A DNA stretch of 64,000 bases from an uncultured Comamonas sp. (GTDB taxonomy: Bacteria; Pseudomonadota; Gammaproteobacteria; Burkholderiales; Burkholderiaceae_C): positions 1 through 64,000 of the forward strand of contig CABIIJ010000068.1 of the NCBI GenBank assembly GCA_902175065.1. Direction: 5' to 3'. Position numbers and translations under genes: made by a program. Below the pieces are notes generated by a model, which searched no databases, was not told the origin of the DNA, and saw only the letters and a program-made list of their open reading frames with translations. The stretch's first letter is position 1. Each line of letters opens with the position of its first letter. Shown one piece after another: positions 7,018 through 39,807 of the stretch.

Positions 7018-8256
7018 ATGAATCAAGCCGCTGTTACGAATTCTGACCATCTTGTGACCGATGCCGTGCGGCAGGCTTTGGCCGTGACCCTGCGCGGGGT
7101 CGATGAACTGCTGCCCCAGGACGAATGGGTGAAGAAACTGGCCCGCGCCGAAGCCACGGGCACGCCCCTGCGCATCAAGCTGGGGCTGGATCCCACCGCG
7201 CCGGACATCCACCTGGGCCACACCGTGGTGCTGAACAAGATGCGCCAGTTGCAGGACCTGGGGCACACGGTGATTTTTTTGATCGGCGACTTCACCACGC
7301 TGATCGGCGACCCCTCCGGGCGCAACAGCACCCGCCCGCCGCTGACGGCCGAGCAGATCAAGGCCAACGCCGAGACGTACTACACCCAGGCGGCCAAGGT
7401 GCTCGACCCTGCCCGGACCGAGGTGCGCTACAACAGCGAGTGGAGCGACGCCCTGGGCGCACGCGGCATGATCGAGCTGGCGGCCAAATACACCGTGGCC
7501 CGCATGATGGAACGCAACGACTTCCACCAGCGCTTTACCGAGGGCAATTCGATCAGCCTGCACGAATTTCTGTACCCGCTGCTGCAAGGCAATGACTCGG
7601 TGGCGCTCAAGGCCGACCTGGAGCTGGGCGGCACCGATCAGAAGTTCAACCTGATGATGGGCCGCCACTTGCAGCAGGAATACGGGCAGGAGCCGCAGTG
7701 CGTGCTCACCATGCCGCTGCTGGTGGGGCTGGACGGCGTGCACAAGATGTCCAAGTCCAAGAACAACTACGTGGGCATTACGGACGATGCGAACACCATG
7801 TTCGCCAAGATCCTGTCGATTTCCGACGACCTGATGTGGGACTGGTACACCCTGCTGTCGTTCAGGAGCCTGGACGACATCGCCGCACTGAAGGCGGAGA
7901 TCGCCGCCGGGCGCAACCCCAAGGATGCCAAGGTGCTGCTGGCCAAGGAAATCACCACGCGCTTTCACAATGCTGCTGCAGCCGATGCGGCCGAACAGGA
8001 CTTCATCAACCGCAGCAAGGGCGGCATTCCCGAGGACATCCCGGAGATCGCCATCGGCGGCGCACCGCTGGGCATCGGCGCCTTGCTCAAGCAGGCGAAT
8101 CTGGCCCCCTCCACCAGCGAGGCCAACCGCCTGATCGACGGCGGCGGCGTGCGCATCGACGGCAGCGTGGTCAGCGACAAGGGCCTGAAGCTGGACGCGG
8201 GCAGCTTCGTGCTGCAAGTGGGCAAGCGCAAGTTTGCGCGGGTGACGCTGGGCTAA
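7018..8256 (+). CDS. tyrS: tyrosine--tRNA ligase
   Basis: 412 aa; HLGH and KMSKSK signatures, C-terminal S4-like domain. Confidence 0.96.
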
Positions 8257-8418
8257 GAACCTGTTTACGATCTCCGCGCGGGTGTGCAGTCGCGGCCTCG
8301 GGCGCTCTGCGGCGTTACAAATCCTCGCCATAGCACCGCTATGGCTGCGGTTTGCGCCTTGCAGCCCATCCCGATCCGCATCCCGCCCCCCCTCGCGCCG
8401 AGATCGTAAACAGGTTCT
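8256..8418. repeat. 163-bp element with 19-bp perfect terminal inverted repeats
   Basis: AGAACCTGTTTACGATCTC (8256-8274) / GAGATCGTAAACAGGTTCT (8400-8418), inner CCATAGCACCGCTATGG palindrome. Confidence 0.85.
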
Positions 8419-8434
8419 GAGAACCTGCATCTTC

Positions 8435-8528
8435 AAAAACAAGAGCTGTCTCCGCTTCTTATTACTGGATTTCAAGGTGTTTCCAATCTGAAATCCTTGT
8501 TTAACCAGCGGTAGAAGCTACTTTTTAT
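8435..8528. repeat. double-hairpin palindromic repeat, copy 3 (degenerate)
   Basis: AAGAGCTGTCTCCGCTT...GGATTTCA...TGAAATCC...CCAGCGGTAGAAGCTACTTTTT. Confidence 0.75.
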
Positions 8529-8549: not shown

Positions 8550-9989
8550 ATGTCTGCAAACGCATGGCCTCTCGATATCGTCATCATGGCCGCCGGCAAG
8601 GGCACGCGCATGAAAAGCCGCACGCCCAAGGTGCTGCAAAAGCTCGCTGGCCGCCCATTGCTGGGCCATGTGCTGGCCACCGCCGGGCAGTTGCAGGCGC
8701 GTTCGGCAGTGGTGATTACCGGGCACGGCGCTGCTGAAGTGGAAGCTGCCACTGCCGGTTCAGCCAGCGTTTCGGGCCGGTTCGACTTGAAATTCGTGCG
8801 CCAGGAGCCGCAACTGGGCACCGGCCATGCCGTGCAGCAGGCGCTGCCGGTGCTGGCCGACGATGGCGTGGTGGTGGTGCTCTCCGGCGACGTGCCGCTG
8901 ACCCAGGCCGCCACCTTGCAGGCGCTGGTCGCTGCGGCGGGGGGCGACCGGCTGGCGCTGCTGACCGTGCGCCTGCCCGACCCCACGGGCTATGGCCGCA
9001 TCGTGCGGGATACAACTGGTGGCGTGCAGCGCATCGTCGAGCACAAGGACGCCAGCGCCGCCGAGCGGGCCATCGACGAGGTCTACAGCGGCATCATGGC
9101 CGTGCCCGCCCGCCTGCTGCGCCCCTGGCTGGAGGGGCTGACCTGCGACAACGCCCAGGGCGAGTATTACCTGACCGACGTGGTCGGCATGGCCGTGGCC
9201 CAGGGCGTACCCGTGGCCGCGCACTGCATTGCCGATGCCGTGCAGGTGGCCGGGGTAAACAGCCCGCAGCAACTGGCCGAGCTGGAACGCGCCCACCAGT
9301 TGCGCCAAGCGCAAGCGCTGATGGAGCAGGGCGTGCGCCTGGCCGACCCGGCCCGCTTCGACCTGCGTGACCACGCCAGCGGCACGCCCGCGCAACTGCG
9401 CTGCGGGCAGGACGTGGAGATTGACCTGGGCTGCATCTTCACCGGGCAGGTGGAGATTGGCGCCGGCGCCCGCATCGGCGCCTACTGCCACATCAGCAAT
9501 GCCATGATTGCCGCCGATGCCGTTATCCACCCCTTTACCCATATCGATGGCGAGGCTGCCGGTGCCAGCGTGGGCACTGGCGCATTGATTGGCCCGTTCG
9601 CCCGCCTGCGCCCGGGGGCGCAACTGGGGGCCGAGGTGCACATCGGCAACTTCGTCGAAGTGAAAAATTCCACCCTGGCCGCCGGGGCCAAGGCCAACCA
9701 TCTGGCCTACCTGGGCGATGCCACGGTGGGCGAGCGCGTCAATTACGGCGCAGGCAGCATCACCGCCAACTACGACGGCGCGAACAAGCACCGCACGGTG
9801 ATCGAGGCCGATGTCCACATCGGCAGCAACTGCGTGCTGGTGGCCCCGGTGACGATCGGCGCGGGCGGCACGGTCGGCGGCGGCTCGACCATCACCAAGA
9901 GCACGCCCGCACAGTCCCTGGCCGTGGCGCGGGGCAAGCAGGTCGTGAAAGAAAACTGGCACCGCCCGGCCAAGCTGCCCAAGGCATAA
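8550..9989 (+). CDS. glmU: bifunctional UDP-N-acetylglucosamine diphosphorylase/glucosamine-1-phosphate N-acetyltransferase
   Basis: IVIMAAGKGTRMKSRTPKVLQKLAGRPLLGHVL; C-terminal left-handed beta-helix hexapeptides. Confidence 0.96.
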   Translation: MSANAWPLDIVIMAAGKGTRMKSRTPKVLQKLAGRPLLGHVLATAGQLQARSAVVITGHGAAEVEAATAGSASVSGRFDLKFVRQEPQLGTGHAVQQALPVLADDGVVVVLSGDVPLTQAATLQALVAAAGGDRLALLTVRLPDPTGYGRIVRDTTGGVQRIVEHKDASAAERAIDEVYSGIMAVPARLLRPWLEGLTCDNAQGEYYLTDVVGMAVAQGVPVAAHCIADAVQVAGVNSPQQLAELERAHQLRQAQALMEQGVRLADPARFDLRDHASGTPAQLRCGQDVEIDLGCIFTGQVEIGAGARIGAYCHISNAMIAADAVIHPFTHIDGEAAGASVGTGALIGPFARLRPGAQLGAEVHIGNFVEVKNSTLAAGAKANHLAYLGDATVGERVNYGAGSITANYDGANKHRTVIEADVHIGSNCVLVAPVTIGAGGTVGGGSTITKSTPAQSLAVARGKQVVKENWHRPAKLPKA

Positions 9990-10814: not shown

Positions 10815-13499
10815 ATGGACAAGCATTACCTCACCCCCCTGTTTGCCCCGCAATCCATCATCGTCCTGGCCGGGGATACCGACGCCCCCGAAACCCTCAC
10901 GCCTTACGGCCAGGCGCTGCACCAGATGCTTCGCGCCCAGCGCTTTACCGGGACGCTGACGTTCATCAACACCAAGGTCACCGGCACCCTGGAGGACCTG
11001 GCCCAGGCCAAGGCCGACCTGGTCGTGATCGCCCTGCCGCAGGAGGAGCAACTGGCCGCCCTGGAGCTGGTCGGACGCATCCGCTGCACCGCCGCACTGA
11101 TCCTGTCCAGCGGGGTTGATGCCCACCATGCCAACGCCTTGCGCCAGGCCGCCGAGCAGGCCGGGGTGCATCTGCTCGGCCCCAACTCCCTGGGCCTGCA
11201 ACGCCCCAGCCTGCACTTGAATGCCGGGGTGATGGGGCCGCTGGCCCAAGAGGGCTCGCTGGCGCTGGTGAGCCAGTCCGGCGCCCTGACCGCCTCCATC
11301 CTCGATTGGGCAGCGGGCAACGGCGTGGGGTTCTCGTCGGTCATTTCCCTGGGGCCGCATACCAGCCTGGAGCTGCCCGAGGCGCTGGACTTCCTGGCCA
11401 ACGATGGGCGCACGCAAAGCATCGTCATCTACATGGAGGGCATCCAGGATGCCCGCAAATTCATGAGCGCCCTGCGCTCGGCGGCCATTGCCAAGCCCGT
11501 GGTCGTGCTCAAGGCCGGGCGCAAGCCTGCCGGCACGGCCGCAGCGCTGACGCACAGCGCCGCCATCGTCGGCAGCGACGATGTATTCGATGCCGTGCTG
11601 CGCCGCGCCGGTGCGGTGCGGGTGGATTCGTTCGTGGAGCTGTTCTCGGCGGCCAAGTGCCTGGCCTCGCGCTACCGCCCGGTCAACAAGCGGCTGGCCA
11701 TCGTCGCCAACGGCGGCGGCCCCGGCGTGCTGGCGGCCGACTGGGTCAATGAACTCCATCTGGAGCTGGGCCGCCTGAACCCGGAAGCCGCCGCGCAACT
11801 GGCCCAGAAGCTGCCGCCCCTGGCCGCCTTGAGCGACTTGATCGACGTGTCCGAATCCGCCCAGCCGGAGCATTTCCAGCAGGCCATCGAGGCCGCATTG
11901 AACGATCCGCAGATCGGCGGGGTGCTGGTGATCTTCTCCCCCCGCATCGGCGTGGACGGCACGGCGGTGGCCCAGGCCGTGGTCGAAGCCAAGCGCCGCG
12001 CAGGCAAACCGCTGCTGACCTGCTGGATGGGCGATGCCTCGGTAGGCGCTGCCCGGGAAGTGCTGCGCAAGGCCCTCATCCCCACCTTCCGCACGCCGGA
12101 AGCGGCGGTGGGCGCCTTTGGCAACATCGCCAACTTCACGCAAAACCAGCAACTGCTGCAGCAGACCCCGCCACCGCTGACCGCCCTGGCCAAGCCCGAC
12201 ATCGCCGGTGCCCGGCTGGTCATCGAAAGCGTGCTGGCCGAGCGCCGCCAGGTGCTCACCGAGATGGAATCCAAGACGCTGCTGGCCGCCTTCCACATCC
12301 CGGTCACGCGCACCCTGCTGGCCCGCAACGGCCACGAGGCCATGATGATCGCCACCCAGCAAGGCTTTCCGGTGGCGCTCAAGATCGATTCGCCGGACAT
12401 CGCACACAAGTCCGACGTGGGCGGCGTGGCGCTGAACCTGCACAACGGCGAGGCCGTGCGCAACGCCTTCAACGACATGATGCAGCGCGTCAAGCGCATC
12501 AAGCCGGACGCCCGCATCAACGGCATCACCGTCCAGAACATGGCGCGTTCGCGCCGGGGGCGGGAGATCTACATCGGCCTGGTCAGCGACGACCCGTTCG
12601 GCCCCGTCATCACCTTTGGCGCGGGCGGCACCATGATCGAGCTGATCGACGACCGGGCCATGGAGCTGCCGCCGCTCAACCAGTTCCTCGCCCGCCGCCT
12701 GATGGAGCGCTCGCGCGTCTTCGAAACCCTGGGCGAATGGCGCGGCGCCACCCCGGTGAAGATGGAAGCGCTGGAGCACGTGCTACTGCGTGTCTCGGAA
12801 ATGGTCTGCGCCCTGCCCCAGTTGCGCGAGATGGACATCAACCCCCTGATCGTCGATGAATCCGGCGCCATCGCCGTCGATGCCCGCATGGTCGTGACCG
12901 AACAGGGGCCATCGCGCAGCCCGGGCAAGTATGGGCATTTGTCCATCCTGCCCTACCCGGCACGCTACGAGCAGATCTGGCCCCTGCGCGACGGCGGCGA
13001 ATACCTGGTGCGCCCGATCCGGCCCGACGACGCGCACATGCTGCAGCACATGGTGAAGAACCTGTCGCAGCAAAGCCGCTACTTCCGCTTCGTCTCGCAA
13101 CTGGCCGAGCTGCCCCCGGCCATGCTGGCCCGCTTCACCCTGATCGACTACGACCGGGAAATGGCCCTGGTCGCCGTCAAGCAGGAACGCATCATCGATG
13201 AGGAAGGGGAAGTCCAGGTCAATGAACGCCTGCTGGGCGTCTCGCGCTACGTCACCAACCCCGACCGCAGCACCTGCGAATTCGCCCTGGTGGTGGCCGA
13301 CGACATGGCCGGTCAGGGGCTGGGCGCCCGCCTGATGCTCAGCATCATGGAAGTGGCGCGGGACAAGGGGCTGGAGCAGATCGAGGGGCTGGTGCTGACC
13401 AACAACCCCAACATGCTCAAGCTCATGCGCCGCCTGGGGTTTGAAATCCGCAGCTTCCCGGAAGACCCGGAATTCCGGCTGGTGGTACACCGCCTGTAA
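10815..13499 (+). CDS. bifunctional acetate--CoA ligase (ADP-forming)-like / GNAT N-acetyltransferase (Pat/YfiQ-type)
   Basis: 894 aa: CoA-binding and succinyl-CoA ligase-like domains, ATP-grasp region, C-terminal GNAT (VADDMAGQGLGARLM). Confidence 0.9.
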   Translation: MDKHYLTPLFAPQSIIVLAGDTDAPETLTPYGQALHQMLRAQRFTGTLTFINTKVTGTLEDLAQAKADLVVIALPQEEQLAALELVGRIRCTAALILSSGVDAHHANALRQAAEQAGVHLLGPNSLGLQRPSLHLNAGVMGPLAQEGSLALVSQSGALTASILDWAAGNGVGFSSVISLGPHTSLELPEALDFLANDGRTQSIVIYMEGIQDARKFMSALRSAAIAKPVVVLKAGRKPAGTAAALTHSAAIVGSDDVFDAVLRRAGAVRVDSFVELFSAAKCLASRYRPVNKRLAIVANGGGPGVLAADWVNELHLELGRLNPEAAAQLAQKLPPLAALSDLIDVSESAQPEHFQQAIEAALNDPQIGGVLVIFSPRIGVDGTAVAQAVVEAKRRAGKPLLTCWMGDASVGAAREVLRKALIPTFRTPEAAVGAFGNIANFTQNQQLLQQTPPPLTALAKPDIAGARLVIESVLAERRQVLTEMESKTLLAAFHIPVTRTLLARNGHEAMMIATQQGFPVALKIDSPDIAHKSDVGGVALNLHNGEAVRNAFNDMMQRVKRIKPDARINGITVQNMARSRRGREIYIGLVSDDPFGPVITFGAGGTMIELIDDRAMELPPLNQFLARRLMERSRVFETLGEWRGATPVKMEALEHVLLRVSEMVCALPQLREMDINPLIVDESGAIAVDARMVVTEQGPSRSPGKYGHLSILPYPARYEQIWPLRDGGEYLVRPIRPDDAHMLQHMVKNLSQQSRYFRFVSQLAELPPAMLARFTLIDYDREMALVAVKQERIIDEEGEVQVNERLLGVSRYVTNPDRSTCEFALVVADDMAGQGLGARLMLSIMEVARDKGLEQIEGLVLTNNPNMLKLMRRLGFEIRSFPEDPEFRLVVHRL

Positions 13500-13565
13500 T
13501 TTCTGTCGTGCAGAGGGAGGCAAAGAAAAAGGCCGGACGCTGACAAAAGCTTCCGACCTTGAATG

Positions 13566-13640
13566 TGGTCCCTTCGGCAGGAATCGAACCTGCATCTGAC
13601 CCTTAGGAGGGGCCCGTTCTATCCATTGAACTACAAAGGG
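13566..13640 (-). tRNA. tRNA-Arg (anticodon CCT)
   Basis: Reverse complement CCCTTTGTAGTTCAATGGATAGAACGGGCCCCTCCTAAGGGTCAGATGCAGGTTCGATTCCTGCCGAAGGGACCA; 7-bp acceptor stem with one G-U, T-arm TTCGATT, encoded CCA. Confidence 0.95.
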
Positions 13641-13691
13641 CAAGGGCTGCGATTGTAAGCGGCCCTTGCCCTTGGTTTCTTTGTCTCCGGG

Positions 13692-16600
13692 TCAATCCTT
13701 GCGCCGGGTGTAGATCAGGTCCATGGCGGTCTGCTCGCCGGTCTGGCCGCGCAGGGTCAGGCGCTTGGTCAGGTCGTAGAAGATGAACAGCGTGCCCATG
13801 GCGCCGTTCAGGCTTTGCTCGTAGGACAGGTACAGGTCCTGCGAGATGCGTTTGCCCAGCGTGAGTGCTGCGCCTTCGGCACCGTTGCCCGGGCCTTTGA
13901 AGCCCAGCTCGTCCAGGCCGATGTTGCCCGCCAGGTCGCCGCCGCTGCCGCCGCCGCTCAGGAGCGCCAGCGCCGCTTGCTGCAACAGGGCGGTTTCGGC
14001 ACCGCCGCTGGCCGGGTCGCGGCCCATGGCGACCCAGGAGAGTTTTTCCGCATCGGGCATCACCGGGTCGGAATAGAGCTGCACGCGCGGGGCGTTGGCG
14101 CTGCCTGCGACCTTGACCCCGGCCCGCACGGCAATGTTCGGCCGCAGGGCGATGATGTCCAGGCTGGGGTTGTCGTAGGGGCCGTTGAAGCGGATGGTGC
14201 CCTGCTCGATGTCCAGCGCCTGGCCCCAGGCGCGGTAACGGCCCCGATCGGTGTGGATTTCCCCGGTGACGCGCGGGCCGCCGCGCACGGTGAGCTGCCC
14301 GTTCAGGCGCGTGGTCAGGCCGTAGCCTTGCAGGGCGAAATCGGGGCCGAGGTCCAGGGTCAGGTGGATGTCCGGCTTGAGCGCAGCGCGGACCGAGCCT
14401 TCCGGCGCGGGCTGGCGGGCGGCCTCCCGCGCTTCCCTGGCCTGGCGTTCGGCGTCCTGCCGGCGCTGGGCGGCCGAGGTGACGTGAACGTCGTCATCCA
14501 GGCCGGGGGCGGATTCATCGGCCAGCAGCAAGGCGGCGCGATTGACGGTGAGCGCCCCGCGCAGGCGCAGTTGCGCATCCTGCATCTGCGCCCGCAGGGT
14601 GCCGCTCAGGCCCATTTGCCGGTCGGCCCGGCTCAAGACCTGCAGGTCGTCGAGCTGGGCCTGGATGTCCATGTGCAGGCCGGTCGCATTCGCGCCATCG
14701 CCTGCCGGGGGGTCGTAGACGATGAAGCCGCTGCCGCGCAGGTGGCCACCCGCCTGCGGCGGCGGCAGGCGGTTGCCGCTTTGCCCCAGGATGCGGGCCT
14801 GGCCATGGCCGCCGCCCTCCAGGTAGAGCCGTTCGATATCGACCCGGTTGCCGGCAAAGCGGGCCTGCAATTGGCCGTTTTTCAGATCGACCCCGTCGAG
14901 CAGGGAGGCGATGCTCAGTTCCTCGGCCTGCAGCGTGCCCTTCCAGGTCGGATCGCTGCGCGTGCCGCCCAGGATGACGTCGCCGCCAAAACTGCCGGCC
15001 ACGCGCCACCCCGGGGGGGCGAAGGAGGCCCAGACGCCGATGTTGGGCAGCAGCAACTGCACCGAGCCGGACAGCGGCGCATCCTCCGCCCAGCGCCAGC
15101 CCTGGGCGTTGCGCCGCAGCGGGCTGCGCACGTCGGCATGGATGGTGCCGGCGCGTTCCGAAGCCCACAGCACCTGGGCACGCAGCTGGTTGCCCTCCTC
15201 CAGCCCCAGTTGCGCCTGGAAGTGTTGCAGGCGCACGCGCTGCCCCCGGTTGGGCTGGCGCCGGGTTTCGCGGGTATCGGCGGTGCCGCTGCTGCGCACG
15301 ACGGTGACGGGGGCGGCATCCTCGTCGGCAGCGGCAATGCGGATGTCGCCGCTCTCGCGCTCCAGCATGACGTGCAATTGCGGCTTGCGGGCGTCGGTGT
15401 CGATGTTCCACTGCCCTTGCAGCACCAGATCGCCGCTGACACCGGCACGGGCCAGCACCGGATCCTGGGGCGTGAACAGGTCGGCCCAGGCCAGGGGGAT
15501 GCCGCTGAACCGGCCCTGGCTGCGCAGCCCGAGGGTGGCGGCGCCCAGCGTCAGCGGCTCCCACTGGATGTCGGCGCTGGCGGAGCTGGCCGCCGGTGCG
15601 GCAGCATTTGCAGGTGCGGCGGGCGGGGTCAGGCGCAGTTGCCCGGCGCTGGCCTGGATGCGTTCGCCCTGCTGCTGGACGGTCACGGGCTGGGCCAGGG
15701 CCAGCAGCCAGTCGCCGCTGTCGGCCATGGGACGGGCACGCAGGGTGAAGGCTTCCAGGCGGGCGTGCCAGGACTGTGGGGATTGGGGCGCCCAGCCTGC
15801 TTGCAGGCGGGTGTCGATCTGCGCCTGTTGCTCGCCCTGGCGGGCCTGGGCCGTCAGGCTCGCCTGGAGCTTGTCCAGCGGGCCGTCCAGTTGCAGCGTC
15901 AGATTCTTGATTTCAGTAGCTGCTTGCGCTGATGGAGCATGAATTATCTGGGGTATTGTTGCTGAAAGCTTTATTTTCAAAGCGGTGGCAGCTACGGATT
16001 TTTCTTCTTCCTGCCCTGTGGCGGGCGCAGGCGGCAGCAGACTGCCCCAGCCGCCCTGCCAAGCGAGTTGCGCCTGGGCCTGGCCTTGCAGGGGCAAGGC
16101 GGCATCGGCCAGCCCGGGCAGGCGGCCCAGCCAGGCCATCAGGCTGGCGGCATCGGCCAGGGTGGCGTGCAACTGTCCCTGGCCGTCGTGCTGGCCCAGG
16201 GTGCCGGTCAGTTCCGCACTGGCCCCTGGCAGAGTCAGGCGCGTGGTTTTGGCGCTGGTGAGTTGCCGGGCCGCGTTGTCCCAGGCCAGGGCGGGGCTGT
16301 GCAGTTGGGCGCCCCAGGCCTGGATGGCGACATCACGCACGTCCAGTTGCGGCGCCTGCCAGCGGCCCTGGGCCTGGGCGCGTTCCAGGCCCGCTGCGGA
16401 GGATGGGGCCTTGCCTTTGGCTGCGGTATCGGCAATGTCCAGAGTGAAGTCGATGGCCTGATCGGCCATGGCCTGGGCGGTGAACGTGCCGCCCAGCGCC
16501 TGCCGGGGCAGGCTGGACAGCGCCCGGGCGGGGTCGAGGGCGTCCAGCTGCACCTGGGCATCGAGCGCCTGCGTCTGCGTGTCGAAGCGGCCCTGGGCCT

Positions 16601-32864: not shown

Positions 32865-32965
32865 TCTCCTGAAAGAATAGCTTTTACCGCTTTTATTTAT
32901 TGGGTTTCAGATGGTTATTAATCTGAAACTCTTTATTTTCCAGCGGTAAAAGCTATCTTTATTGA
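32865..32965. repeat. double-hairpin palindromic repeat, copy 5
   Basis: Perfect 15-bp arms ATAGCTTTTACCGCT (32877-32891) / AGCGGTAAAAGCTAT (32942-32956); inner GTTTCAGAT/ATCTGAAAC. Confidence 0.9.
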
Positions 32966-32987: not shown

Positions 32988-34538
32988 TCACACCAGCACC
33001 TGCCGGCGCGTGCGGCCCTGCGGGGCAGCGGTGCCGATGGGCTGGCCCGAGGCGGGTACCGCCCGCTCGCGCCCCCAGGCGCGGATGTCCTCGATCTGTT
33101 CGGGGGCGGTTTTCGAGAGCGGCACCACGTTGTTGAAGCTGCGCCGAAACAGCTCGGGCGTGACGGCGGTATCGCCGTTCAGGTAGGCCTCTTTCACCAC
33201 TTCGCGCACCGCCGATTCGAGGTCGGAGCCGGCAAAGCCGTCGGACAGTTCCACCAGCTCCTGCAGCAGGGCTTCCGGCACCTCCTGCTTGAGGCCGCGG
33301 TGGGCATAGATGCCGATGATTTCGCGCCGCTCCGGCGCGGTGGGCAGATCGACGAAAAACAGCTCGTCGAACCGCCCCCGGCGCAACAGCTCCGGCGGCA
33401 GGCGCGACACGTCATTGGCCGTGGCCACGACGAAGACGCGCGAACGCGCCTCCTGCAGCCAGTAGAGGAACTGCCCGACCAGCCGCGTCGCCGTACCACC
33501 ATCGCTGCTGCTGCCGGCGCCGGCCAGCCCTTTTTCTATTTCGTCGATCCACAGCACGCAGGGCGCGACGTGGTCGGCGGTGGACAGGGCGTCCTTCAGC
33601 CGCGTCTCGCTCTGGCCCAGGTACTGGCCGTGGATGGTGGACAAATCCAGCCGGTACAGCGGCAGCCCCCAGTTGGCGGCAATCGCCTTGGCCGAAAGCG
33701 ATTTGCCACAGCCCGGCACACCCACCAGCAAAACGCCACGCGGCGGGCGGATGCCGCGCTCGCGCAGGTCGGCGGTCAGCAGAGGCTGCTCCTTGTCCAG
33801 CCAGGCTTTCAGCCCGCCCAGGCCGCCCACGTTCAGCTCCGTGCCGCGCACGTTCACCCGCTCGATGCCGGAGATGTCGGCAAAGATGCGGTCCTTGGCG
33901 TGCATGACCTCGACCATGTCGGCCTTGGTGATGCGGCCATTGGCCAGCAGCGTGGCGATGATGTTTTCCGCCTCGATGCGCGAGACACCCGCCAGGGCAG
34001 CGGCGGCGCGGCGTTCGTCGGCGGCGTCCCACTCGATGGGGATGTGGCCCCGGTAAGCGGCCAGGTTCTCCTGAACGATGGCCAGCATCTCGTCCTCGGT
34101 CGGGGCCGACAGCACCAGCGACATCCCGGCCCGCTGCAACTGGCCGAACACCGGTTTGGTGGTGATGACGACGACGCAGCCGCTGTTCTCCGCTGCCAGC
34201 ATCACCACGTCCAGCAAGTGCCGGGCGGCGGGGGTGTCGTCCTCGATGTCGGAGACTTCGGTCAGCACCACGCTCAAGTTCTGCCGCTGGGGAAACTGTT
34301 GGCTGGCAAAGTCCACCGCGCCGGTAACGGAGCGGTCGTCATTCACGGTGCGGTTGGTGCCTAGCTCGCGCGTGCCCTGGGACAGCGTGTGGACGTAGAT
34401 CGGCGCTTGCAGCTCCGCGCCGACTTCGCGCAGCAGCTCCAGCACCCGGCTGCGTTCCGCGCTGCGGATGGAGATGAAAGGAATGCGGGCCTTCAGGTAA
34501 CGGCTGAGGGTGGCCTTGAATTCAACGGTGTCGCTCAT
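32988..34538 (-). CDS. AAA family ATPase, Ycf46-like
   Basis: [28 protein letters not shown] Walker [14 protein letters not shown] Walker [17 protein letters not shown]. Confidence 0.88.
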
Positions 34539-34546
34539 GGGCGGTG

Positions 34547-35134
34547 TCAGAGAAGGATGTTGCGTTTACGGGAGGACGGCACTGGCGTGCAAGCCGGGGC
34601 CGACGGTGCGGGGGCCTGCGGTTGCGCCTGCTGCACCAGTGCGTCATAGCGAGTCAACGGGTTGTTGCGCAGCAGGGTGGCCAGTTGCCCGCTGCGGTCG
34701 GTGCGGGCGCTGGCTTCCAAAGATTGTTGCGAGCGTTCGGCAAACTTGCGCACTTCGCCGGCCAGCTGGCTGCGGGTGTCCGGCGGCAGCGCCGGCAACA
34801 GGCACAGGCGATGGACGAAGTAAAGCTGCACTCGGGCCTGGACGATGGCCCGCACCACCAGCGATTCGTGCCCGCTGCCGTGCAGGTCGCGCTGCAAGCG
34901 ATCGGCGCAGACGTTCAGCCGCCGCTGCACCTCGTCGGACAGGCGCTGGACGAACAGCGGCGCTACCCCAGCCGACCAGTGCAGCGAACCGGCGTACAGG
35001 GTTTGCAGGCAGTTTTCGTCATCGTCGCCACGGGCCAGCGCATCCAGGCACTGGCTCCACTGCGCGTAGCTGGCCGGGGCAGCCTGGTGGTCAGCGGCAG
35101 CGGTGTTGCCGCCGCGTCCAAACCACTTCCACAT
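34547..35134 (-). CDS. hypothetical protein in Ycf46-like ATPase operon
   Basis: 195-aa ORF; start overlaps stop of upstream ORF; consistent operon spacing. Confidence 0.75.
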   Translation of the reverse strand: MWKWFGRGGNTAAADHQAAPASYAQWSQCLDALARGDDDENCLQTLYAGSLHWSAGVAPLFVQRLSDEVQRRLNVCADRLQRDLHGSGHESLVVRAIVQARVQLYFVHRLCLLPALPPDTRSQLAGEVRKFAERSQQSLEASARTDRSGQLATLLRNNPLTRYDALVQQAQPQAPAPSAPACTPVPSSRKRNILL

Positions 35135-35364
35135 CAGCGGCGGCGCACAAAAGGCGCGGCGGGCAGCAAGTCCCAGGCGGGCAAGGCACCGGCCAGCACG
35201 TCCCGGCTGGCGGGCTGTTCGGGCAGGTTCTGCGCTGGGGTCTGCGATGTGTTGTGCGAGGCCGACGGCTGCGGCGCTGGCGGAATGTTGGGCGAGGCGG
35301 TTTCTGGGGCGGCGGAAAGGATTTCTCTGGGCATGGGGGAAAACTCCTGGCGGGATGAGGCCAT
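35134..35364 (-). CDS. small Pro/Ala-rich hypothetical protein
   Basis: 76 aa; TGATG overlap with upstream 576-aa gene and 1-nt overlap with downstream gene. Confidence 0.6.
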   Translation of the reverse strand: MASSRQEFSPMPREILSAAPETASPNIPPAPQPSASHNTSQTPAQNLPEQPASRDVLAGALPAWDLLPAAPFVRRR

Positions 35365-37094
35365 CAGGCCACTTGCGCGGCAGCGGCGGGCATGACGCGG
35401 CGGGTGGTGTTGTGTCCGGCCAGCAGGTGCTGTTCGGGGCTGATGCTTTCGAGCAGGCTGGTCACCTCGGCGGCCACGGCATCGCGCATGGCCCAATCGC
35501 GCCGCCATTCCACGGTTTCAGCCAGGCAGGCCCGCAGCGCCTGGGCCGATTGCTCTTGCAGCACGGCAAAATCGCGTTCGATTTGCTTGCGCCGCTGCTG
35601 CACCTGCCGGTAGCCGAGAAACGCCCAGCCCAGTGCCGCCAATCCCATGACGAAGACGATCATGCCGTTGCCAAAGCTCATCAGCAGCAGCACCACGCCC
35701 AGGGCGATCAGCCCCCAGTCCTTCAGCCCCAGCTTGGCCTGTTCCAGCGCCTGCTGCTTGCGCCGTTCGATGTGCTGGCGCAGGCTGTCTTGCAGTTCGG
35801 CTTCGTTGTCGCCTTGCGCCGTCTGGCCTTGCCAGTCTTCGATGGACAGATGAATGGTTTGCGGCACCTGCTGGCGGATTTGCGCCGTCACGTCGCTGTG
35901 CGCATCCACGATCCAGTCGCGGGAATGGGCCACCGCCAGCCGCTGGGTGGCGCGAGTGACGTGCGACAGCTCCGGGTGCATGGCGGCGTTGGTCAGCAGT
36001 TGCGTGAAGTCCACACGCTCTTCCTGGGCCTTGGATTGCAGGTCGAAGCGCTGCTGGGCGGCGCGTTTGTCGCCGGCTTCCTCGATGATGAGCTGGTTGA
36101 GCTGTTCGGTGCGACGCAGCGGCAGCTCCTCATCGTCGAAGTGGGATACAAGGCTGGTCAGCAGGTTGTCCACGGCGACAAGCACGCTGCTGGCCACCTT
36201 GATTTCGCCCTGGAAAATGTCTTGGAAGTGCTCCAGGACGATGGACTGCATGCTGGCCGCGTTCAGCGCCCCATTCAAATCGTTCCACATTGGGCTGAAC
36301 CGGCTCAGGTGCGTATAGCGCTGCGCATGGTTGAAATGCGGCGTTTTGGAGCGCAGCGCATCGCCCCATTGCCCGCGCTGGGTCTGGGCAAAACCGGCCT
36401 GTTGCGACAGTTCCTCAATCCAGCCACTGATGCGCTTGGTGCACAGCAGCGCCGTGTCCGTGTTGAAAACGCCGTTGGCCAGGGCATCGACCATCACCAC
36501 CGTCTGCCGATCCAGGCTGTATGGATTCTGCAAACCGAAATAGCGGTCGAGCCAGATGCGGCTGACCTCAGCCCGCCCGGCGCGACGGCCAATCAGGGAG
36601 AAGAACAGCGAGGTTTTCTCGTCGTCACGGCGTGTGGCCTCGGCCAGGGCACGTTCGGCCAATTGGCGTTTGTCCGTGAGCCAAGCAGCCAATGCCACCA
36701 GCGCCGGGGCCAGCCAGTAGCGCGGCGTGGAGAGCATCAGTTCCTCGGTCGCGTTGCGGATGGTTTCCTGACGCACCAGTTGAATGTCGGCGGCCTGCAG
36801 GATGCCCGTGGCCTGGCGGCGCACGATGGCATATTGGCCGAATTTGTTCTCGATTTCCTGGCGGATTTTGACTTGGCGCGTTTCGGCAAACCCCAGCTCC
36901 TTGGCCTTGAGATCCGCCTGCACGAAGTCGTTGAAGGCCTGCTCCAGCCGCGACAGCTCGGCCCGCGTCTGCGCCAGATTGCTGCCGACCACGTCCACCT
37001 GCCCGGAGACGGTGCCAATATCGCTTTGCAGGCTGCGCAACGAACCCAGAATCAAACTGAGGTCGGCCACTTGAATGATGCGTTCTGTGCTCAT
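35364..37094 (-). CDS. membrane-anchored coiled-coil hypothetical protein
   Basis: 576 aa; N-terminal heptad-like coil, central WLAPALVALAAWL, C-terminal hydrophobic pair WGLIALGVVLLLMSFGNGMIVFVMGLAALGWAFL. Confidence 0.85.
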   Translation of the reverse strand: MSTERIIQVADLSLILGSLRSLQSDIGTVSGQVDVVGSNLAQTRAELSRLEQAFNDFVQADLKAKELGFAETRQVKIRQEIENKFGQYAIVRRQATGILQAADIQLVRQETIRNATEELMLSTPRYWLAPALVALAAWLTDKRQLAERALAEATRRDDEKTSLFFSLIGRRAGRAEVSRIWLDRYFGLQNPYSLDRQTVVMVDALANGVFNTDTALLCTKRISGWIEELSQQAGFAQTQRGQWGDALRSKTPHFNHAQRYTHLSRFSPMWNDLNGALNAASMQSIVLEHFQDIFQGEIKVASSVLVAVDNLLTSLVSHFDDEELPLRRTEQLNQLIIEEAGDKRAAQQRFDLQSKAQEERVDFTQLLTNAAMHPELSHVTRATQRLAVAHSRDWIVDAHSDVTAQIRQQVPQTIHLSIEDWQGQTAQGDNEAELQDSLRQHIERRKQQALEQAKLGLKDWGLIALGVVLLLMSFGNGMIVFVMGLAALGWAFLGYRQVQQRRKQIERDFAVLQEQSAQALRACLAETVEWRRDWAMRDAVAAEVTSLLESISPEQHLLAGHNTTRRVMPAAAAQVA

Positions 37095-37114
37095 GCTTCC
37101 TCACAAGGAATTTT

Positions 37115-37585
37115 TTAAAGATCGATAAAGGCGGTCTGCCCGGACTCGCTGACGGCGATCAGGCGGTTGGAATACACCTCGATGAAGGCATACCCCGGAT
37201 GCAGGGCCACGCTGCGGGCACGCTCCAGCAGGCTGGGCAGGGATTCAAAGGTTTTGTAGTGCTGGATGATGCTGCCCGTGCAATCGAGCGTATGCACCTG
37301 GTAGGGCGCCCCCAGGTAGCAACGCGAGACGATGCCCAGCGGCAAGGCGTCGATCTGCACGTCCGGCAGCTCCTGGCGGATGGCTTCGATCAGCGCCTGC
37401 ACGCTGGCCGAGGAATGCACATGCCCGCCCGCATCCAGCTGGGTCACGGCCTGGATGTACGCCGCAGAACGTTTTTTGCGCAGCCGGGCTTCCAATGGCG
37501 CCCCTGCCAGTTGACGGGCGGGGGCGGTCTGCGTCCGGGTAGGCAAGGCGGAGGCGGGTTGGATACCAAGTAAAGAGCGGGCCAT
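37115..37585 (-). CDS. hypothetical protein, first gene of Ycf46-like ATPase operon
   Basis: 156-aa ORF, 20 bp upstream of the 576-aa gene, same strand. Confidence 0.8.
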   Translation of the reverse strand: MARSLLGIQPASALPTRTQTAPARQLAGAPLEARLRKKRSAAYIQAVTQLDAGGHVHSSASVQALIEAIRQELPDVQIDALPLGIVSRCYLGAPYQVHTLDCTGSIIQHYKTFESLPSLLERARSVALHPGYAFIEVYSNRLIAVSESGQTAFIDL

Positions 37586-37699: not shown

Positions 37700-37798
37700 A
37701 ATAATAAAAAATAGCTACTACCACTTATCAATAATGGATTTCATATCAAAAACACTCTGAAACTTAATAATAAAAAGCGCTAATAGCTATTATTTATT
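37700..37798. repeat. double-hairpin palindromic repeat, copy 6 (AT-rich, degenerate)
   Basis: AATAATAAAAAATAGCTACTACC...GGATTTCATATC...CTGAAAC...GCTAATAGCTATTATTTATT. Confidence 0.75.
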
Positions 37799-38843: not shown

Positions 38844-39807
38844 CGTGATGGGGGGAAAGGGGCTGCGGCCCATGGTCATGGTCATGGTCATGGTCATGGT
38901 CATGGTCATGGTCATGGTCATGGTCATGGTCATGCTGAGCATGGGGCGCGTGGACGCCATGCGCATGGGATTCGTGGGCCAGGTCATGGGCCAGGCTGCT
39001 GACCACCGTCACCAGCCCGATGCCCAGTGCCAGCCACAGCACCTGGGCCAGGGTTTGCCGGGCGCTCAGGTGCTTTTGCAGTTGCGGGATCAGGTCGGAC
39101 AAGGCCACGTAAATGAAGCTGCTGCACGCCACCGTGAGGAAGAACGGCAGCCAGTCGTGCAACTGCCCGACCAGGAAATACCCCGCCAGTCCCCCCAGGG
39201 CGGTGATCGACCCGGCCAGCGAGACCTTGAGCATGGCAACACGGCGGTGGCTGCCCCGGCTCATCACCACCAGGTCGCCCATGTGGTGCGGCACCTCGTG
39301 CGCCAGCACGGAGACGGCGGCAATCAGCCCCAGGCGCAAATCGGCCAGGAAGGCCGAAGCAATCAACACCCCGTCGCCAAAGCAATGCACGCTGTCGCCC
39401 GTCAGCAGCGACCAGCCCGAGCCGGTATGCGCATGGCCATGCGCGTGGTCGTGGTCATGCGCATGGTGGGCGTGGTGCAGGTTCTGCACCTGGGGAGCGT
39501 GGCTGTGCTCGTGCCCGTGGTGCCACAGCTCGGCCTTGGTCAGCAGGAAGAAAAACACGATGCCGATCAGCAAGGTGGTGAAGAGTGACTGCGCATCGGC
39601 CCCGCTTTCAAAGGCCTCGGGCAGCAGGTGCATGAAGGCCGTGGCCAGCAAGGCCCCGGCGGCCAGACTGAGCAGCCCCTGCTGCGCCCGGCCCGCGCTG
39701 GCGCGGCCAAAGCCGACGTGCAGCAGCGCATTGGCCACCCAGACGCTGCCGATACCGGCGGCCAGGGTGGCCAGGATGATTGCTATCAATACCATGATCA
39801 GATTCAC
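38812..39807 (-). CDS. ZIP family metal transporter with His-rich loop and (HD)n C-terminal tail
   Basis: HLLPEAFESG, DSVHCFGDGVLIASAF, AHEVPHHMGD; start GTG 39807 or ATG 39795. Confidence 0.92.
   Translation of the reverse strand: MNLIMVLIAIILATLAAGIGSVWVANALLHVGFGRASAGRAQQGLLSLAAGALLATAFMHLLPEAFESGADAQSLFTTLLIGIVFFFLLTKAELWHHGHEHSHAPQVQNLHHAHHAHDHDHAHGHAHTGSGWSLLTGDSVHCFGDGVLIASAFLADLRLGLIAAVSVLAHEVPHHMGDLVVMSRGSHRRVAMLKVSLAGSITALGGLAGYFLVGQLHDWLPFFLTVACSSFIYVALSDLIPQLQKHLSARQTLAQVLWLALGIGLVTVVSSLAHDLAHESHAHGVHAPHAQHDHDHDHDHDHDHDHDHDHDHGPQPLSPHHDEPTDSRRAD
38871..38934. repeat. hexanucleotide tandem repeat (CATGGT)10 + CATG
   Basis: 64-nt uninterrupted tract; minus strand reads (CAT GAC)n = (His-Asp)n. 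Confidence 0.97.

Follow-up and report, generated by a model that had tools for sequence, protein, structure and literature searches.

A stretch of 64,000 nucleotides from an uncultured Comamonas (contig CABIIJ010000068.1, positions 1 to 64,000; hereafter the window) carries on its minus strand a compact operon of five genes, here termed g1 to g5, which encodes an AAA+ ATPase (g5) and four partner proteins. We found that the five genes recur together as a set and that the block they form is almost certainly a mobile module. The ATPase engine belongs to a known family; g1-g4, and a short motif placed at one end of each of the five proteins, are new to every resource searched. We give roughly even weight to the possibility that the operon encodes a five-protein mobile conflict system, most likely directed against phages or other mobile elements.

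The layout of the operon was taken from a list of open reading frames (ORFs), which agreed with the coordinates of an initial annotation of the window: g1 runs from 37585 to 37115, g2 from 37094 to 35364, g4 from 35134 to 34547 and g5 from 34538 to 32988, while g3 ends at 35134. The 76-residue peptide assigned there to g3 was over-called. The start MxRxIL, or a near variant of it, in orthologues of g3 from Comamonas to Komagataeibacter agrees with an internal ATG at 35334, ten codons further on, and a Shine-Dalgarno sequence (AGGAG, 35348-35344) lies 9 nt upstream of this ATG. Because the orthologue starts and the AGGAG both support this start, g3 was taken to be 66 residues long. The earlier spacings of 20, -1, -1 and 8 bp were correct for the genes as annotated; with the corrected start, the overlap of g2 and g3 becomes a gap of about 29 bp. 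The five genes are as follows.

37118-37585, minus strand: g1, a 156-residue protein with 14 orthologues and no family match; structure model at a predicted local distance difference test score (pLDDT) of 70.7.
35367-37094, minus strand: g2, a 576-residue protein with a coiled coil, a TPR-like solenoid and a C-terminal membrane hairpin, as predicted from a model (pLDDT 76.3) and orthologues.
35137-35334, minus strand: g3 with its corrected start, a 66-residue peptide rich in proline and alanine, whose N-terminal MPREIL and C-terminal LPAWDLLPAAPFVRRR are both conserved.
34550-35134, minus strand: g4, a 195-residue ORF with orthologues and no family match, its Pro/Ala-rich C-terminal linker ending in RNILL.
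32991-34538, minus strand: g5, a 516-residue Ycf46-like AAA+ ATPase with a single ring (Pfam AAA, 3.2e-30; phrog_8638 over its full length).

All five genes were found together in 14 loci, the window and 13 others, from Betaproteobacteria, Alphaproteobacteria, Fusobacteriota and Bacillota. These loci comprised seven Comamonas genomes (the window and C. antarctica among them), C. composti, a Paenalcaligenes metagenome-assembled genome, a Komagataeibacter plasmid (two strains), the Streptococcus satellite phage Javan368, Fusobacterium vincentii and two IMG/VR contigs. With 13 loci besides the window holding the full set, the operon is not a chance arrangement. Their order was g1-g2-g3-g4-g5 in Proteobacteria and in one IMG/VR contig (L023), and g2-g3-g4-g5-g1 in Streptococcus, Fusobacterium and the other contig, L020. 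Spacing in most loci ranged from an overlap up to about 50 bp, and this tightness, together with the conserved order, is that of a translationally coupled operon. Furthermore, the pairwise identity matrices of g1, g2, g4 and g5 correlated at 0.83-0.96, and among the phage and plasmid loci fetched for the ATPase, matches to g1, g2 and g4 were confined to loci with the whole system. The initial annotation had proposed a self-contained, uncharacterised module around a Ycf46-like ATPase and a membrane coiled-coil protein, and had named two outcomes as counting against it, namely a lack of co-conservation and the assignment of all five proteins to a characterised system. Neither was observed, and the module it proposed is upheld by its conservation in the 14 loci.

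The distribution of the system was patchy. Of the 399 genomes that sampled the phylum, one contained g2, namely that of the window, a Comamonas genome of 3.2 Mb; within the genus, g2 and the system were present in 7 of 37 genomes. No near match was found in E. coli genomes, and scans of viral_contigs with the g2 of the window, with its alignment (A1) and with the g2 of L020 returned one relative in total. A description of the five-gene module was not found in the open-access literature, subscription journals being mostly outside that search.

The positions of the operon provide the evidence for its mobility. The 4.6-kb block, from start codon to stop codon, lies at five unrelated Comamonas sites, and blast comparison of the flanks revealed that the operon alone aligns. 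At one of these, between a patatin-like and a phosphoenolpyruvate-carboxylase-like gene, the operon is present in two genomes (G004 and G009, where it separates the two genes by 4.8 and 5.6 kb), and the same two genes lie 0.06-0.95 kb apart without it in four others (G032, G006, G022 and G036); the gap sizes were computed from listed gene coordinates. The change of site within the genus shows movement, or repeated gain and loss, of the operon. The system is also carried on Komagataeibacter plasmids and on a megaplasmid of C. antarctica; the F. vincentii copy is probably chromosomal, its PLSDB record being 2.1 Mb. Javan368 carries it at the end of the element away from the integrase, with g1 as the last gene. 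An integrase-like fragment (8953-9297 of that locus, L014, minus strand) was noted just before the five-gene block, as if a second integrative element had brought the block. One IMG/VR contig with the system also has recombinases. In L023 (IMG/VR 3300043178) a divergent copy of the system adjoins an E2/E1-JAB conjugation cassette: a protein of the Prok-E2 family and an E1-like JAB-ThiF protein are encoded a few genes downstream (12752-14845), with zinc-ribbon proteins and a DnaJ/beta-helix protein in between.

Repeats had been reported on both sides of the block, and inverted repeats were indeed present at both positions.

32877-32956, no strand assigned: downstream flanking inverted repeat with 36-nt arms, which also overlaps a terminator-like hairpin.
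37703-37798, no strand assigned: upstream flanking inverted repeat with 41-nt arms, of the same dispersed family.
8507 and 56560: further copies of this hairpin family in the window.

Both flanking repeats are long and imperfect and belong to one dispersed intergenic hairpin family with the core AGCGGTAAAAGCTAT, which gave 5 matches against 0.09 expected, counted in the window and the loci. In C. denitrificans (L062), where the operon occupies a different site, the same family again stands on both sides of it (8409-8489 and 13237-13315). Hairpins on both sides at two sites hint at repeat-mediated movement; five other loci lack them. The idea that the hairpins are operon-specific mobile ends was not supported, the family being dispersed and absent from those five other occupied loci.

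We then turned to the proteins themselves. Searches of Pfam, NCBIfam, PADLOC v2 and PHROGs gave no family match for g1-g4, and the AAA domain of g5 was the sole match of the five proteins in the four libraries, in line with the first reading, which had recognised the ATPase family only. The match of g5 to phrog_8638 in a PHROG profile search (E=1.1e-102) covered residues 7-514, the N-terminal region included. Its Walker A and Walker B motifs, together with the sensor-1 Asn and the arginines of RRGRFDE, were invariant in the alignment of orthologues, so that the intact Walker and sensor regions first ascribed to the ATPase were recovered. By its full-length homology and intact AAA+ core, g5 is assigned from sequence to the Ycf46-like AAA+ ATPase family. 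The features of g5 and g2 referred to here are listed below.

33699-33722, minus strand: Walker A of g5, GVPGCGKS, invariant in orthologues.
33540-33554, minus strand: Walker B of g5, LWIDE, invariant in orthologues.
36795-37058, minus strand: N-terminal long helix of g2 (residues 13-100), a predicted coiled coil modelled at moderate confidence.
35595-35726, minus strand: hydrophobic hairpin of g2 (residues ~457-500), from orthologue hydropathy and model helices 457-476 and 478-550.

Structure models of g1 and g2 were built from alignments of seven sequences each and are therefore approximate. In the g2 model, the long N-terminal helix (13-100) is followed by a solenoid of helices (109-410), then by a beta hairpin and by a pair of long helices that holds the hydrophobic hairpin. 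The C-terminal hydrophobic hairpin, described earlier for the window protein, was also found in the orthologues, not always as two clear peaks. In g1, a disordered N-terminus (MARSLL) is predicted to be followed by a domain of beta-beta-beta-alpha-beta-beta-beta topology at residues 84-155; C89, H98 and H109, which lie inside this folded domain and are invariant in orthologues, could be catalytic or metal-binding. Foldseek comparison of both models with PDB, a check proposed at the outset, gave no match at E<=0.001. The folds that weakly matched g2 were mostly TPR proteins, none of them significant, and the resemblance of g2 to alpha-pore-forming toxins or TPR proteins (E 0.15-1.6) was rejected as evidence. 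Searches of g1, g2 and g4 against PDB sequence profiles yielded nothing significant; the best match, annexin to g4 at an E-value of 0.0055, extended over 44 residues and was rejected. The g3 of L023 (~7042-7415, in the frame after g2) has a C-terminal zinc ribbon, CQNCGASLEEGSTFCTGCG, added behind the conserved WDLLP...VRRR.

The operon was also compared with the closest known systems. In the Ycf46-like modules of cyanobacteria, plasmids and phages, in which an AAA+ protein is accompanied by DUF2997 and sometimes DUF1257, the ATPase has the family and architecture of g5 (about 30-35% identity to plasmid and phage members), and in several of them a terminal tail is common to the ATPase and its neighbours, as in the five-gene system. 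These modules differ in that neither DUF was found in g1-g4 (Pfam, E<=1), so that the operon is not a Ycf46-DUF1257-DUF2997 module, and in that g1, g2 and g4 were absent from them in the fetched loci, where g3 was not searched for. IetA models of the IetAS anti-phage system match the AAA region of g5 (PADLOC 2.5e-24; NCBIfam 73.3 bits), but this score is far under the IetA family cut-off of 510 bits, and the subtilisin-like serine protease partner was not found by Pfam among the five genes; on both grounds, IetAS was ruled out. CDC48/p97 and Vps4-type remodellers share the AAA+ core, VCP-like and p97 ATPases being the best PDB matches, whereas g5 has one full AAA+ domain, a different N-terminal region and a place in a bacterial mobile module. 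An AAA+ antitoxin of SGI1 (SpoVK/Ycf46/Vps4 superfamily), which is paired with a subtilisin-like toxin, was set aside as a different system.

The ends of the five proteins were then compared across all orthologues. A motif, R-x-[IVLM]-[LMFI], was found within 9 residues of the N-terminus in g1 and g3 and within 12 residues of the C-terminus in g2, g4 and g5, at the following positions.

37568-37579, minus strand: RSLL at the N-terminus of g1; in 13 of 14 orthologues, never internal.
35317-35328, minus strand: REIL at the N-terminus of g3; in 10 of 14 orthologues.
35391-35402, minus strand: RRVM at the C-terminus of g2; in 11 of 14 orthologues, by the strict pattern.
34550-34564, minus strand: RNILL at the C-terminus of g4; in 11 of 14 orthologues, absent in Streptococcus, Fusobacterium and L020.
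32991-33005, minus strand: RQVLV at the C-terminus of g5; in 14 of 14 orthologues.

The rate expected from the interiors of the same proteins was 0-6% per terminus; the counts partly reflect shared descent and are not independent events. Variable linkers precede the motif in g4 and g5. The motif was nearly complete in the proteobacterial loci and weaker in the branch of Bacillota and Fusobacteriota. Its presence is new, indirect evidence for a physical linkage of all five proteins, which probably form one complex.

Similar tails were found in other loci with Ycf46-like ATPases. The ATPase ends in RSINLN and two neighbours end in RAILLD or RAVLLD in L033, L036 and L040; the corresponding tails are RAINLN with RAVVLD and RAVVLN in L034, RTLDF with RNIDI and RNIDL in L025, and RTFEF with RRLEF on a Rhodococcus plasmid. 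In L033, L034, L036, L040, L025 and L056 (IMG/VR and plasmid loci), one or two proteins adjacent to the ATPase were seen to end in tails of 5-6 residues similar to its own, and these tails differ between modules. Among 55 loci (non-redundant at 60% identity), the matching of ATPase and neighbour tails exceeded that of shuffled pairings, none of 20,000 permutations scoring as high. Because shared base composition could inflate this result, a within-locus control was carried out, in which a score of 16 was reached by 4.5% of near same-strand neighbours and by 1.0% of far or opposite-strand ORFs (p=0.003; rank test p=0.0003). R-x-phi-x-phi tails (phi, a hydrophobic residue) occurred on 9.5% of neighbours and 3.5% of control ORFs (p=0.004). 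These tests used simple ORF calls, and the opposite-strand controls may include spurious ORFs, which makes the effect size approximate; the sets also include two IMG/VR copies of the five-gene system (L022/L023, the same contigs as L134/L135) and are not wholly independent. The pattern is not universal, as only about one third of these ATPases carry an R-x-phi-x-phi tail. It is conceivable, at somewhat below an even chance, that Ycf46-like ATPases generally recognise their partners by a code of terminal tails (R-x-phi-x-phi or the like), specific to each module and common to the ATPase and its operon partners. If so, the five-gene system, in which all five proteins bear a tag, would be its fullest example, and a large group of uncharacterised AAA+ modules from bacteria, plasmids and phages would be assembled on a new principle.

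Two readings of the tails were weighed. They may serve as a docking code, for which the chances seem evenly balanced, or, with a probability nearer one in four, as degradation tags for the host ClpXP protease that would keep a potentially harmful system at a low level until infection disturbs proteolysis. Signal classes of ClpX include a C-terminal RRKKAI and an N-terminal Met-basic-phi-phi-phi (PMC7857536), and the reported signals resemble the RRQVLV/RRNILL and MxRxLL ends. The basic residue of g1 and g3, however, is at position 3 and not 2, and the tails of ATPases and their neighbours vary by module, which suits cognate recognition better than a single host protease. This variation favours docking without settling the question.

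With docking as the preferred reading, a mechanism can be sketched. The common motif would act as a tag for docking or recognition and bring g1-g4 together with the AAA+ ring in a single inner-membrane complex, with g1, g3 and g4 as possible sensor or adaptor subunits. Infection or the entry of a foreign element would change the state of this complex; the ATPase would pull on or rearrange g2, and the membrane hairpin of g2 would carry out or trigger a protective response. That the ring acts on g2 is plausible, if a little less likely than not, and the trigger and the effector act are the least certain steps.

The initial annotation had left stress, envelope and defence roles inseparable, and this can now be narrowed. 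The system is spread patchily across phyla, plasmids and a satellite phage carry it, and between housekeeping genes it is present or absent in the manner of a cassette; these features speak for a mobile conflict system more than for a housekeeping role in envelope stress. The system thus shows the carriage on mobile elements and the patchy occurrence that mark the anti-phage class, and a defence role, inferred from distribution, stands at about an even probability. Hotspots of antiviral systems are a known feature of satellite phages (PMC9122126), and as in those of P4-like satellites, the five-gene block of Javan368 lies at the satellite end away from the integrase. It differs from such antiviral cargo in that searches against the known anti-phage systems of PADLOC v2 gave only generic AAA matches for g5 and none for g1-g4.

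Several observations weigh against a mobile conflict system joined by common tails. Operon DNA diverges within Comamonas about as much as polA does (93% for polA and 91% for the operon in one relative, 90% and 93% in another), and on this ground sequence identity was rejected as a sign of recent transfer between Comamonas species; the argument for mobility is carried by the different sites and the patchiness. The Comamonas neighbours, at the sites where ORF sequences were read, look like housekeeping genes and not a defence island, PADLOC not having been run on them. Searches of the five proteins with Pfam, NCBIfam, PADLOC and PHROGs recognised neither a nuclease, a protease or an NADase nor a domain of a known toxin. 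In Streptococcus, Fusobacterium and L020 the motif is absent on g3 and g4 and takes a weaker form on g2. Finally, the tail pattern was first spotted by eye and then tested on related loci, not on an independent preregistered set.

Other functions were considered against the same evidence. The module might maintain the envelope or respond to stress, the ATPase extracting or remodelling membrane complexes via g2 and mobility being only niche adaptation, by a logic that could be likened to membrane repair of the PspA/Vps4 type or to cyanobacterial Ycf46 operons. We regard this as unlikely, at about one chance in five. It accords with the membrane hairpin and predicted coiled coil of g2, with the chaperone-like AAA+ proteins that are the best-known relatives of g5, and with a related Ycf46-like ATPase that adjoins Hsp70/GrpE on a Pseudanabaena plasmid; it sits poorly with a system that is very rare and patchy and is carried at a satellite-phage end and on plasmids, and with the four Comamonas members that keep the neighbouring genes adjacent without the operon. 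Less likely again is that the mobile elements themselves profit from the module, through plasmid or satellite maintenance or helper-phage manipulation, and not the cell through defence: plasmids and a satellite do carry it, but the majority of copies lie in chromosomes among housekeeping genes, with no recombinases or replication genes close by. A role in assembling or disassembling a large protein structure such as a shell or filament, the motif being a cargo or subunit peptide, would explain short terminal peptides common to otherwise unrelated proteins but is very improbable, as no shell- or filament-like gene was recognised in the module and no fold matched.

Transfer of the whole set from phylum to phylum, and to a satellite phage, suggests that it confers a selectable benefit. 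Should the mobile conflict system favoured here prove to be one of defence, it would be of a new type, in which an AAA+ motor works on a membrane coiled-coil protein. The terminal tags, a few residues per protein, offer an immediate experimental handle, and several other loci with Ycf46-like ATPases show the same tail logic.

Outside the operon, a short tandem repeat lies at about 38860-38960 of the window; it reads as (MT)n near the start of a peptidase-like ORF and also as (HD)n near the end of an upstream transporter-like ORF.

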